Part shown: positions 32,434-57,989 of the stretch, piece by piece
How the letters are laid out: each line of letters starts with the position of its first letter
How positions within the stretch are numbered: the first letter of the stretch is position 1
Assembly (NCBI GenBank): GCA_016934735.1
Contig: JAFGSG010000056.1
Location: 1-57,989, forward strand
Reading direction: 5' to 3'
DNA length: 57,989 nt
Origin: Spirochaetota bacterium
Lineage (GTDB): Bacteria; Spirochaetota; UBA4802; JAFGDQ01
Notes under the pieces: generated by a model
The model's input: only the letters and a program-made list of their open reading frames with translations
What the model was told of the DNA's origin: nothing
Databases searched by the model: none
Program-made: the position numbers and the translations under genes

Positions 32434-32958
32434 TTAAATTTGATTTAATCTTGCAAATTTACTATGATATTTTATAGCTGCTTGATTATATGTAAGAGCA
32501 GCTTCTTTTAGATCAATGAAATAACCCAAACAAATTCTTTTATTATTTATGCTAATTCTACATTGCCATTTTTTAATTTTTTCTCGCCAAGTTACTCCTT
32601 TATATCCTGAAGTATTATTTTTTTGTAATCCCCTATTACACATATTTTGTTGATTAGTACATTTTCTTAAATTTGATTCTCTATTGTCAAATATATCCCC
32701 ATTATTATGGTCAATCCATTTATCATTCATAATTAACTGATGCAAAAGTATATGTATATTATTATTTTTTACTGCTGCTATATTTGTGAACTTTTTATTT
32801 TTTTTGCTATAATTCACATACCATCTATAATCTTTAATTTTATCATAATTTTTAGTATCAATTATGACTTCAAATTCACCATACTTTTTAGATTCAACAA
32901 GAAATTTAGTAATCTCTGAATCTTGATATATTATTTTATTTTCACCTTTATAATACAT
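32434..32958 (-). CDS. HNH homing endonuclease with AP2-type DNA-binding domain
   Basis: 174 residues. An HNH-type region (about 70-108, HQLIMNDKWIDHNNGDIFDN, RESNLRKCT) is followed by an AP2 domain (about 118-172, GYKGVTWREKIKKWQCRI). This is a free-standing homing endonuclease of the kind that inserts between phage genes. It is strongly AT-rich and interrupts the baseplate operon, with no sign of an intron because both neighbours look complete. It could spread into phages lacking it. Confidence 0.85.
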   Translation of the reverse strand: MYYKGENKIIYQDSEITKFLVESKKYGEFEVIIDTKNYDKIKDYRWYVNYSKKNKKFTNIAAVKNNNIHILLHQLIMNDKWIDHNNGDIFDNRESNLRKCTNQQNMCNRGLQKNNTSGYKGVTWREKIKKWQCRISINNKRICLGYFIDLKEAALTYNQAAIKYHSKFARLNQI

Positions 32959-54759: not shown

Positions 54760-55803
54760 TTACTGATATACTAAACTTTTTATCTGCCTGAATAATAATT
54801 CCGCTATTTGAGGTACAATCGCGTTTCCGAGTCCTTTAAGTCTGTCCACCCTATGGGGTATCCCATGAGCCAGTCTGCCCACGTCGGGTTCAACTGACCA
54901 TCTGTTACTTTCTCTCTCACCCACTCGTCCAGATTGCCCTTGTATGTCTCGCTCCCCCTGAATCTGCTCTTTACTGCCCCTTTGTAATTCGTTGCTGAAG
55001 GAGTCGGGCATTTTACAATATCGTTCAGATTGTTTTGAAATCCTGGACGGTTTACTCTCTTTGCCTGTCCGCTCCTGTAATCCCGATTCTGAAGTATCGG
55101 CCACATCTTGACCGCCGTTGTCAAATCCACATCCCTGTTCTCGTTCACTCGTTTCTGCATCCATTTTTTTGAATGTCTGACTATTCCATCGCAAGCTCTC
55201 GCAGTCGGCCAGAATTTCTTGTTCATTGGCTGAACCTGATCCCTCAATTTGTAATGCCCTGAACAATTTTCCCTCATTTCCATTATTCCACCCTCGCCGT
55301 CTGACCCGTTCGGAGTACGCCACAATCCAGATTCGTTCCCTCTTGTGCGGCGCACCCATGTCACTTGCTCGTATATGCTGCCATTCAGCATTATACCCGA
55401 TTTCAGAAAGCGATCCAAGCACAGCGGCAAGTCCTCGAAAAGTGAGTGCTGCGACATTTTCCATAATTGCGAATCTCGGTCGTAAGTCCCTAATAATTCG
55501 CCAATACTCAAACCAAAGACCAGACCGACTTCCGGTAATACCTTCACCTTTTCCTGCGATTGAAATATCCTGACAGGGAAATCCTCCTGTGATAATCCAC
55601 TCTGTGCCATATTTATTTATTAACTCCTGTGTATCAATCTTTGTAATATTACCTAATTGTATCGAATCTGGAAATCTTAACTTATATAATTTCTGGCAAT
55701 ACGGCTCAATGTCCGAACATAAATGATTTTCAAACTTCATGCCGGCAAGATAAGCGCCATAAGCAAAACCTCCTATGCCGTGAAACAAGTCAAGATAATT
55801 CAT
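54760..55803 (-). CDS. DNA cytosine-5 methyltransferase
   Basis: 347 residues using ATG 55803, which has an AAAGGGA box (a longer start at 55842 lacks one). It carries the C5-methylase motifs: the SAM-binding FHGIGGF near the start, catalytic Cys77 in GFPCQDIS, ENV (about 115-117), motif VIII (GAPHKRERIWIV), and motif X (LGNAIVPQIAELL) near the end. It may protect phage DNA. Between motifs VIII and X, about residues 165-300, it is polar and low-complexity (repeated VADTSESG-type segments) instead of a folded target domain. That section is also open in another frame (see next entry). Confidence 0.85.
   Translation of the reverse strand: MNYLDLFHGIGGFAYGAYLAGMKFENHLCSDIEPYCQKLYKLRFPDSIQLGNITKIDTQELINKYGTEWIITGGFPCQDISIAGKGEGITGSRSGLWFEYWRIIRDLRPRFAIMENVAALTFRGLAAVLGSLSEIGYNAEWQHIRASDMGAPHKRERIWIVAYSERVRRRGWNNGNEGKLFRALQIEGSGSANEQEILADCESLRWNSQTFKKMDAETSEREQGCGFDNGGQDVADTSESGLQERTGKESKPSRISKQSERYCKMPDSFSNELQRGSKEQIQGERDIQGQSGRVGERESNRWSVEPDVGRLAHGIPHRVDRLKGLGNAIVPQIAELLFRQIKSLVYQ
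54804..55610 (-). CDS. Long reading frame nested in the methyltransferase gene
   Basis: A 268-residue frame lies entirely inside the methyltransferase gene, read +1 on the same strand. Its product has a regular character: SFxK/W-type start (YDRDSQLWKMSQHSLFEDL), SGIMLNGSIYEQ, then four repeats of a WRTPNGSDGEGG / FWPTARACDG / MWPILQNRDYRSG / CPTPSATNYKG pattern, and the end GQLNPTWADWLMGYPIGWTDL. Similar WPTP and LNPTWVEWLMG-type products are, as I recall, annotated beside phage cytosine methylases. It has no clear Shine-Dalgarno. Either a real overprinted gene or a shadow kept open by constraint on the methylase. Confidence 0.5.
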   Translation of the reverse strand: MAQSGLSQEDFPVRIFQSQEKVKVLPEVGLVFGLSIGELLGTYDRDSQLWKMSQHSLFEDLPLCLDRFLKSGIMLNGSIYEQVTWVRRTRGNESGLWRTPNGSDGEGGIMEMRENCSGHYKLRDQVQPMNKKFWPTARACDGIVRHSKKWMQKRVNENRDVDLTTAVKMWPILQNRDYRSGQAKRVNRPGFQNNLNDIVKCPTPSATNYKGAVKSRFRGSETYKGNLDEWVREKVTDGQLNPTWADWLMGYPIGWTDLKDSETRLYLK

Positions 55804-55831
55804 ATTCCCTTTCATATTATACTTAGTATTG

Positions 55832-56425
55832 TTAAATAACATCCTCTAATGTTTGACTTATATGCTCAATCTTCCCTGCCATTTCGGGTTCAGATTCTAC
55901 TACCGGTTTTAGTTCAGGCATTAAATCACCCAGGAAAATCGGTTCGTGTAATTCTTTGTCGCCGTTAGCTATTATGCGTTGCTTTGCTATGTTCCTTGAT
56001 TCTGGCAATACATCCTTCAGCCGTTCCCATATTACAAGAAAACTTACCTCCCATGACTTCAAGCCGGACGTTCCGCATACGTCCTGTTTATTCCGAATGT
56101 TTTTGCAATTATTTAATATTTTATCCGGCTCCCACTCTCGCGCTCGATAAAGTTGTTGTAATGGCGATTCCCGATGCAATCCAGTATTTATTTGTAGCCC
56201 TCCTCCCTTGAGAGCATTGTCTATTATTTCTTTGAATTTATTTTTTTTCGGCAAATACGTTTCGTTATCTGTAATAAGGACATAAAGATTATTTAATGCA
56301 GAAAATGGAAAATTACGTTTAATTAAATAATCGTTTATATCTTCGATTTGGATTGCATTATAAGTCTTGTCGTATGCTTCCTGAATACGGTTTATAAGTT
56401 CTTTATAATTATTGATTTTTTGCAT
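55832..56425 (-). CDS. Hypothetical early phage protein
   Basis: 197 residues, mostly helical, located between the replication initiator and the methyltransferase. Contains HRESPLQQLYRAREWEPDKIL and SFLVIWERLKDVLPE. It may be involved in replication (helicase loader-like position), but no ATPase motif is present. It overlaps the initiator gene by 17 bases. Confidence 0.5.
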   Translation of the reverse strand: MQKINNYKELINRIQEAYDKTYNAIQIEDINDYLIKRNFPFSALNNLYVLITDNETYLPKKNKFKEIIDNALKGGGLQINTGLHRESPLQQLYRAREWEPDKILNNCKNIRNKQDVCGTSGLKSWEVSFLVIWERLKDVLPESRNIAKQRIIANGDKELHEPIFLGDLMPELKPVVESEPEMAGKIEHISQTLEDVI

Positions 56426-57119
56426 TTTTTAATACCTCGTTAGCGTCAAGGAATTTTGACTTTTCTGGTTTATCAAACTTTTTAGCATTTTCACGCCATG
56501 TTGACGGGATAGATTGCCAGCGTATAATTTTAAGTCCGTTAGATTGCCGCCAGCCGTTGGCATTATAGTGATGCCAGCACTTTTTTATATTTATATCAAT
56601 ATAACCTTTTTCTGTGCAGTATTTAGTAAATTCTTCTTCTGTCGGGTATTTAGGTTCGTCATTTTTAGGATTATAGAATTGATTAAGCTCGTTTAAGTTA
56701 GAGTTTAAGTTTAAGTTATAGTTTAAGTTAGAGTTTAAGTTTAAGTAGGAATAGGCTTTAGATAGGCTTTGAAAGGCTATCATAATGAATTCAGGGGCTT
56801 TTTTTAGGTTTTCTTCTATCCCTTTTTTGACATTTGGATTAATTTTTTGATGTTTTATGAAATTAGTAATAGCTAACCAGCCGTCTTTATAAACCATTTT
56901 ATTATCTTTTTCAAAGCGTTTTAAAATTTTATCGATCATTTCTTTATCAATTCCAGTATCTAAAGCAATTTGTTTGATCTGGATTTCATATATTCCGGCT
57001 AAATTTGTTAAGGGATTCGTTAATAAATATACAAATAATAATTTTTCTATCGGGTCTAAATTTGAAATGTAATTATCAGTCCAGAATTTAGTATTTACAT
57101 AACGATTTTTATCTGCCAT
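56409..57119 (-). CDS. Phage replication initiator / replisome organiser-like protein
   Basis: 236 residues from ATG 57119 (AGGAG box, correct spacing). Its N-terminal half is a winged-helix region (TKFWTDNYISNLDPIEKLLFVYLLTNP..IYEIQIKQIALDTGIDKEMIDKIL) typical of phage replisome organisers. An Asn/Leu-rich linker (about 124-143) follows, encoded by direct DNA repeats, then a C-terminal part (WRQSNGLKIIRWQSIPSTWRENAKK) that may recruit other replication proteins. It would bind the repeats in its own gene, as lambda O does. Confidence 0.75.
   Translation of the reverse strand: MADKNRYVNTKFWTDNYISNLDPIEKLLFVYLLTNPLTNLAGIYEIQIKQIALDTGIDKEMIDKILKRFEKDNKMVYKDGWLAITNFIKHQKINPNVKKGIEENLKKAPEFIMIAFQSLSKAYSYLNLNSNLNYNLNLNSNLNELNQFYNPKNDEPKYPTEEEFTKYCTEKGYIDINIKKCWHHYNANGWRQSNGLKIIRWQSIPSTWRENAKKFDKPEKSKFLDANEVLKNAKNQ
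56691..56750 (-). repeat. Iteron-like direct repeats, candidate replication origin
   Basis: Two tandem 30-bp units (56691-56720 and 56721-56750) share their first 26 bases; each unit holds three copies of a GTTTAAGT-type motif, giving six. They lie within the linker-coding part of the replication initiator gene. Lambda-type phages have origin iterons inside the initiator gene at this point, so this is a good origin candidate. Confidence 0.6.
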
Positions 57120-57345: not shown

Positions 57346-57989
57346 TTACTCCTTATAATCTTCTATGACTTCAACTTCTGAGCATCTTACTTTTGTAATA
57401 TCATCTGGATATACAACAAAGTTATCAATATTAACTTTACATATTTTAAGTTTGCCTTTATTATAATTTAAAGCTAATTGTGGTAGGGGTGATAAGTGTA
57501 ATCCATCACCACATTGCACTTGTTCGTCGGGATTCCATTTTTCGGGTTTAACTATACCTTCATATTTAATTTTGCCTGTATAAAAGTCGCATTCAGTTTC
57601 TGGATTAACGGATTTATAAAGTGTAATTTGATTATCTTTTATCTGTTCAGAATATATATCTAAAAAATCATTTTTTGTTAATTGAGTATTATTTGTTTTA
57701 ATTATTTGCACTGAATCAGATTTTTTTAAAATATTAGGGGTACAATTATTACATATTATAATTGCATTTTGTAGAACTTTTTGAATTGTAATATTATTAT
57801 AAATTTGAATAACACTGTTGCCCCATACATACTGGATAGTACCGCCCCATACATACTGGATAGTACCGCCCCTGACATACTGGATAGTACCGCCCTCGAC
57901 AGACTGGATAGTACCGCCCTCGACATACTGGATAGTACCGCCCTCGACATACTGGATAGTACCGCCCTCGACATACTGGATAGTACCGC
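57346..57989 (-). CDS. Repeat protein with octapeptide repeats, 5' end outside window
   Basis: The reading frame runs from the stop at 57346 to the window edge without a break (213 residues visible). From the edge inwards it reads as seven repeats of GGTIQYVE-type octapeptides (GGTIQYVW, GGTIQYVR, GGTIQSVE variants), then about 55 residues of Asn/Ile-rich linker, then a conserved-looking C-terminal domain (LYKSVNPETECDFYTGKIKYEG, QCGDGLHLSP, YPDDITKVRCSEVEV). Octapeptide repeats like this could form a beta-solenoid. A GTG at 57711 could wrongly suggest a shorter gene. Function unknown. Confidence 0.7.
   Translation of the reverse strand, partial: GTIQYVEGGTIQYVEGGTIQYVEGGTIQSVEGGTIQYVRGGTIQYVWGGTIQYVWGNSVIQIYNNITIQKVLQNAIIICNNCTPNILKKSDSVQIIKTNNTQLTKNDFLDIYSEQIKDNQITLYKSVNPETECDFYTGKIKYEGIVKPEKWNPDEQVQCGDGLHLSPLPQLALNYNKGKLKICKVNIDNFVVYPDDITKVRCSEVEVIEDYKE
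57820..57989 (-). repeat. Tandem 24-bp repeats, seven copies to the window edge
   Basis: The core ACTGGATAGTACCGCC (+ strand) starts at 57831, 57855, 57879, 57903, 57927, 57951 and 57975, exactly 24 bases apart. The period is eight codons and encodes the GGTIQYVE unit on the - strand. The units near the edge are almost identical, so copy number could change by recombination. Confidence 0.9.

Follow-up and report, generated by a model that had tools for sequence, protein, structure and literature searches.

The window analysed here, the whole 57,989-nucleotide stretch of a Spirochaetota contig, raises the question of whether a 268-codon frame lying inside a cytosine methyltransferase gene is a gene in its own right, or a shadow cast by constraint on the methylase. 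Among prokaryotes, few long overlapping genes have been called fully established, as described in PMC9927249.

A nested frame in a prophage methyltransferase gene

Prophage-like DNA extends from about 24.5 kb to the window end and includes amidase, baseplate, head protease, portal, terminase, NinB-like and DnaD-like genes. The methyltransferase gene, M, is situated in the early region of this prophage, and the nested frame, W, lies in its +1 frame. Both are open over the extents originally described. The features of the locus are the following:

54760..55842 (-): M, C5-cytosine DNA methyltransferase, predicted catalytic subunit, 360 aa (PF00145, E 2.4e-43; TIGR00675)
54804..55610 (-): W, 268 aa, gene nested within M in the +1 frame; predicted subunit for target recognition and motif IX (homologues, phrog_1008, selection tests)
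55561..55587 (-): M motif IV, GGFPCQDIS
55312..55341 (-): M motif VIII, RERIWIVAYS; in the W frame the same DNA runs into ESGLW
54835..55311 (-): M residues 178–336, read-through stretch between motifs VIII and X
54808..54834 (-): M motif X, GLGNAIVPQ

The catalytic motifs of a C5-methyltransferase (I, IV, VI, VIII and X) are all present in M and in order, and the match of M to M.HhaI is restricted to M residues 13–178. On the DNA the motif order is the ordinary one, namely I–VIII, variable region, IX-like block and X. Motifs I–VIII and X are in frame 0 and the remainder is in +1. W matched 91 database proteins and phrog_1008, annotated ‘DNA methyltransferase’ (E 1.3e-24). It had no Pfam or NCBIfam match and nothing significant among PDB sequences, and AlphaFold returned no confident fold for the W of the window or for a split-type W (pLDDT 56.3 and 51.6, respectively). 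The four WPTP-like units reported in W were found where they had been placed, beginning at 55322, 55211, 55103 and 55010, and the end segment reads LNPTWADWLMGYPIGWTDL (54837–54893). The VADTSESG repeat noted in the M frame lies at 55081–55104 and spans the start of the third WPTP-like unit.

The longest open run in the +1 frame of M was 270 codons. When the codons of M were permuted with the protein fixed (n = 20,000), the +1 open run averaged 109 codons and did not exceed 228; in sequences drawn according to the codon usage of ten prophage ORFs (n = 20,000), it averaged 93 and reached at most 242. None of the sequences in either set reached 268. The other alternative frame of M had an open run of just 28 codons, and in the family described below the third frame was interrupted by a stop in 153 of 154 loci. 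The initial annotation had also set an aromatic and hydrophobic nested frame against a polar methylase frame. Hardly any such contrast was seen in the 154 loci: aromatic residues made up 5.6% of the M stretch versus 5.0% of W, and V, I, L, M, F, W and Y together made up 16% versus 20% over the same DNA. Composition was rejected as an argument for W, as the frames are not told apart by composition alone.

Other features of the window were recorded. A 24-base tandem repeat (57827–57989; 6.8 copies, 95% match) reaches the contig end; the gene that contains it has a weak DUF7666 match, below the Pfam cut-off, and several frames are open there on both strands. A degenerate GTTTAA hexamer repeat (56691–56746) within the DnaD-like replication gene encodes an Asn/Leu-rich stretch. 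Among the tail genes, 32434–32958 has weak AP2 and HNH matches, also below the Pfam cut-off, and is possibly a homing endonuclease.

The two frames across the phage family

We assembled 168 loci, consisting of the window and 167 loci fetched by W similarity from phages, IMG/VR (the best 80 of at least 545) and genome contigs (the best 80 of 338). The window itself (L008) was left out of the first-set counts. W was in the +1 frame of M in 166 of the 168 loci; the exceptions were L058, where the contig is cut inside the gene, and L076, where two methylases were mis-paired. The overlap between W and M had a median of 875 nt, or 81% of the stop-to-stop methylase frame. A methylase match was present at every one of the 168 W loci, and the stand-alone W homologue for which a search had been proposed was not seen away from a methylase in this set, which was gathered by W similarity. 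Stops in the nested frame of homologous methylases had been named as evidence against a gene; the open W frame continued into the end block in at least 162 of the 166 loci. Broken copies exist, as in L009, in L225, where the W match ends before the modules, and in L266, where both frames are affected. The last of these (L266:801-1581) is from an E. coli prophage and is annotated as a pseudogene, and its two frames are interrupted at about the same place.

Loci differed in the frame that holds motif X. In 154 loci and in L150, motif X was in the M frame and the methylase frame read through to it. In six of the 168 loci (for example, L015) the methylase frame ends downstream of motif VIII, and the W frame holds motif X. 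L049 has a single stop between motif VIII and a same-frame motif X, and no motif X was found in four loci. In L194 a stop directly follows motif VIII in the methylase frame, and W terminates past the IX-like block; motif X was not found there by profile. In Salmonella phage S9-5 (L249:1997-2744) the overlap is near-total, the methylase of 244 aa and the W of 247 aa having starts 4 nt and ends 13 nt from each other, and the annotation covers the methylase only. In Mycobacterium phage Wiks (L253:1501-2500) both halves of an arrangement resembling that with motif X in W are annotated ‘DNA methylase’. The W protein P0069 switches to a GIY-YIG domain (PF01541) past its N-terminal part, which suggests a homing endonuclease inserted in the overlap.

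A second gathering scanned by the methylase core alone, with a query itself built from W-bearing loci and the window, and 80 loci were kept of 579 confirmed. All 80 had a W-profile match in +1. The matches of L210 (27 bits) and L244 (31 bits) were weak, and these two are methylases of the ordinary kind, which lack modules and have both the variable region and motif IX in-frame; the match of L225 reached 48 bits and ended ahead of the modules. The small E. coli plasmid methyltransferase L252 was considered as an EcoHK31I-like enzyme and rejected, being ordinary with its variable region in-frame. When the split-type member P0092 served as query, 4,264 of 7,997 scored candidates matched. The 120 matches listed were mostly unnamed or ‘hypothetical’, and 71 of them had an X-like LGN after the IX-like block in the W frame. 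Among the 46 genomes searched from the class of the window, W was found in one, the window's own.

Selection acts on different frames along the gene

We compared variation by codon position in disjoint pairs of loci, dropping pairs above 95% identity and taking region bounds from profiles. Before W, the mismatch at M positions 1/2/3 was 0.18/0.11/0.52, and M position 3 was the most variable in 31 of 32 pairs. The same held in the core overlap (motifs IV–VIII; 0.21/0.13/0.37; 75 of 76 pairs) and after the W stop (0.19/0.11/0.40; 17 of 20 pairs). In the modules the values were 0.44/0.17/0.13, and all 55 disjoint pairs were most variable at M position 1, which is W position 3, the wobble position of W. 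The IX-like block gave 0.20/0.10/0.18. Bounds set by regular expressions gave the same outcome, though motif VIII went undetected in 78 of the 154 loci and motif X in 61.

Ratios of nonsynonymous to synonymous change (pN/pS), for which pairs above 97% identity were dropped, followed the same regions. Before W, pN/pS was 0.18 for M and 1.41 for the same +1 frame. In the modules it was 0.22 (0.19–0.26) for W and 2.07 (1.85–2.32) for M, and in the IX-like block it was 0.40 for W and 0.50 for M. In the core, over the first ~95 W residues, M dominates and the W ratio was 1.03. Purifying selection on the nested frame is thus present in the modules and the IX-like block, and it is weak in the core. 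Across the family, the M frame at 54897–55311, up to the IX-like block, gives no sign of purifying selection and yet remains stop-free. We repeated the analysis on 43 loci of the methylase-core scan, paired mutually or with first-set loci and with the same 97% limit; 24 of 26 pairs agreed and two were opposite. The repeat kept loci with a W score of at least 60, and 37 of the 80 were dropped because they were in the first set, scored below 60 or had bounds that were not found.

The suggestion that the nested frame is a systematic shadow of methylase constraint therefore does not hold for the repeat region. The frame under constraint there is W (0.22) rather than M (2.07), and it is the polar stretch of M that is the shadow. 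The suggestion is partly true of the first ~95 W residues, which are weakly constrained and partly shadow because the methylase dominates the core and the W ratio is 1.03. The ordinary methylase L244 gives its weak 31-bit W-like shadow over motifs IV–VIII.

Reduced synonymous change in the methylase had been put forward as a further sign of overlap, and the synonymous sites of M are indeed conserved where W overlaps. We examined fourfold sites in 61 loci with a late-starting W (705 pairs; core identity 45–93%, GC3 difference at most 0.12). The fraction of M fourfold sites that differed was 0.704 before W and 0.692 after the W stop, and fell to 0.493 in the core overlap and to 0.086 in the IX-like one. 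In 26 disjoint pairs, the core was lower in 22 and higher in four. Along the gene, the drop starts at about the W start and ends at about the W stop. Columns 81–88 of the core, at 0.685, were not lowered and were as variable as the region before W. Loci with an early-type W provide no overlap-free baseline before W, so low synonymous change was not used as proof in that group.

The methylase frame stays open across the modules

When the W protein and its codons were held, the M frame was expected to be open in 6.4 of 152 loci (~4%), and for the window it was open in none of 400 such shuffles. It was observed open in 152 of 152 loci, a class that is defined by motif X in the same open frame; the only further locus with motif X in M and a closed M frame was L049. 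In the six loci with motif X in W, the M frame has 6–14 stops each, the first of them 3–6 codons past motif VIII. These loci are a natural control for what happens once the dual requirement is lifted. By inference from selection, the methylase is read through the modules.

Exchangeable modules and a motif IX-like block in W

In 159 loci, W consisted of an N-terminal part followed by 1–7 modules with a median length of 39 aa. The window has four modules and the block that follows them:

55212..55322 (-): W module 1, WRTPNGSDGEGG...; 72% identical module in P0042, N-flank 10% (cut 10 residues longer at its start in the module comparison)
55104..55211 (-): W module 2, WPTARACDGIVRHSKK...; 89% identical module in P0038, N-flank 11%
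55011..55103 (-): W module 3, WPILQNRDYRSG...; 81% identical module in P0006, N-flank 38%
54897..55010 (-): W module 4, CPTPSATNYKGA...; 67% identical module in P0055, N-flank 9%
54837..54896 (-): W motif IX-like block, QLNPTWADWLMGYPIGWTDL; dual-coded, the same DNA giving EPDVGRLAHGIPHRV in M

Since the best relatives of these modules (67–89% identical) sit in proteins whose N-flanks are only 9–38% identical, the modules point to cassette exchange.

The block after the modules reads LNPxWVEWLMGYPxGWT in the W family. We scored it with a matrix for motif IX that was derived from 11 of 12 ordinary methyltransferases, L255 being left out. Motif IX was not recognisable in the M of the window, where the best window of this matrix scored 0.5 bits, versus 6.0 bits in its W. 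In 75 of 84 and in 89 of 118 W proteins, the block outscored every other window, and shuffled W proteins attained its score in a median of 4% and 6% of shuffles. An hhalign comparison with ordinary C5 methyltransferases placed IX–X in register and was not significant (E 0.18 and 0.23; probability 0.3%). Thus motif IX is likely carried by W, and is not proven to be, because the profile comparison was non-significant and shuffles reach the score in 4–6% of cases. In a Megaera plasmid (L251:1793-2818), the IX-like block and motif X share a frame, the modules are in +1 and W stops before the block.

Start codons

The ATG at 55610 is the likeliest start of W; AGGAG lies 13 nt upstream of it, a long spacing, and an alternative start is GTG at 55547. 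In 41 of 162 loci, W is of an early type that begins MxW near the methylase start. Tandem starts of the form NTGAATG, with the M and W start codons 4 nt apart, were found in 36 of these 41 loci, and a Shine–Dalgarno-like core in 34 of the 41. Closely spaced overlapping starts are described in E. coli (PMC9841429).

Relation to known split and multispecific methyltransferases

Among the precedents that we found, M.EcoHK31I appears to be the closest to M and W. Its small frame is nested in its large frame. This two-polypeptide C5 methyltransferase (YGGCCR) is described as having motifs I–VIII and X on the larger polypeptide and motif IX on the small one (PMC3404938), and both proteins are required according to the title of Lee, Kam and Shaw 1995, as cited in PMC3404938. 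Compared by description rather than by sequence, M is similar in having motifs I–VIII and X, with IX predicted on a second polypeptide. The two differ in that the variable modules here are in W, whereas the predicted target-recognition domain of M.EcoHK31I is placed in the larger subunit in the account given in PMC3404938. If the two enzymes are of one kind, our selection data would predict the opposite of that placement. EcoHK31I is a Type II restriction-modification system, according to PMC6456624, whereas no partner endonuclease was noticed at the M/W locus.

M.AquI (CYCGRG) is a split C5 methyltransferase, described with motifs I–VIII on one polypeptide and IX–X on the other, and with a variable region that the two share (PMC3404938). 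The likeness lies in the two polypeptides, and the six of 168 loci with motif X in W resemble its I–VIII/IX–X plan. In the window, however, motif X remains in the catalytic frame, and W is within the coding DNA of M. Multispecific C5 methyltransferases of Bacillus phages are described as carrying tandem target-recognition units in their own coding sequence (PMC8936443). M and W resemble them as a phage enzyme with tandem modules that are predicted target-recognition units, but the W modules are out of frame with the catalytic motifs.

Two entries share the family and the nested position of W and are known as annotations only: the ‘g49 internal gene’ of Paenibacillus phage Diva (KP296791) and phrog_1008, annotated ‘DNA methyltransferase’. 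In two genome papers on P. larvae phages, the passages found assign the g49 internal gene no function and report no test of selection on it. Among the open-literature matches listed, as titles and abstract openings, no description of the interleaved M/W arrangement was found.

A proposed interleaved two-polypeptide enzyme and its alternatives

The proposal of an overprinted second gene, perhaps acting in target recognition, stands as far as the gene is concerned, on the selection tests, and the recognition role is plausible. We consider it probable that W evolves as a protein-coding gene whose product is predicted to join M in trans, supplying target recognition and motif IX. Motifs I–VIII are in frame 0, the modules and the IX-like block in +1, and motif X again in frame 0; the simplest working enzyme would be two polypeptides. 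The ribosome would start W separately, inside or just after the M start. M would bring the catalytic domain, and its stretch over the modules may be a tether that lets motif X return; W would bring target recognition and motif IX. Its modules may be tandem target-recognition units swapped between phages, and the pair would methylate cytosines at several phage-genome sites, which may protect the phage from host restriction.

A programmed +1 frameshift after motif VIII, which would produce a fusion of the catalytic and target-recognition parts and no separate W protein, seems unlikely. It fits the ordinary motif order along the DNA and the position of the frame switch between motif VIII and the variable region. 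However, the synonymous constraint and the W profile extend far upstream of motif VIII, to about the W start, and early-type W starts 4 nt after M in 36 of 41 loci. In loci with motif X in M, moreover, the fusion would be without motif X or require a second shift back.

W might also be a genuine protein with no part in methyl transfer, such as an inhibitor or a DNA mimic overprinted on the methylase; the lack of any significant match, by fold or by profile, between W and part of a methyltransferase agrees with such a role. But W occupies the place of the variable region and motif IX next to an M without a recognisable motif IX, motif X can itself sit in the W frame, and W was not seen away from a methylase in the 168 loci. 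The two ordinary relatives with in-frame versions (L210 and L244) lack the modules. We judge an unrelated W to be decidedly improbable.

That the polar stretch of the methylase is the target-recognition region and W a side product is how M.EcoHK31I is described in PMC3404938, yet it is very hard to reconcile with a pN/pS in that stretch of 2.07 for M and 0.22 for W, and with the loss of the M stretch altogether in loci with motif X in W. A nested frame that is purely a shadow or a chance reading frame, to which the overlap of the first ~95 W residues with conserved motifs IV–VIII and the 31-bit shadow of L244 would lend themselves, is refuted for the module region by the codon-position test, pN/pS, the shuffles (0 of 20,000) and the core-scan repeat, and has almost no probability left for W as a whole.

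Returning to the two-polypeptide enzyme, we also favour, with rather less assurance, a broader reading of it. A very common phage methyltransferase would be an interleaved enzyme in which one stretch of DNA gives both a specificity subunit, in +1 and selected for its sequence, and a nearly sequence-free tether in the catalytic subunit, in frame 0 and selected for openness only. Specificity cassettes would be exchanged between phages as DNA modules that have to remain stop-free in two frames. In that case, what has been assigned as a target-recognition domain in the large subunit of M.EcoHK31I would be a shadow as well.

In conclusion, along one gene the two frames pass the main constraint back and forth. 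If the interleaved enzyme is real, it would give a function to a very large set of mostly unnamed or ‘hypothetical’ proteins and correct annotations that call just one frame. It would also provide a swappable set of modules in which phage methylation specificity might be read.
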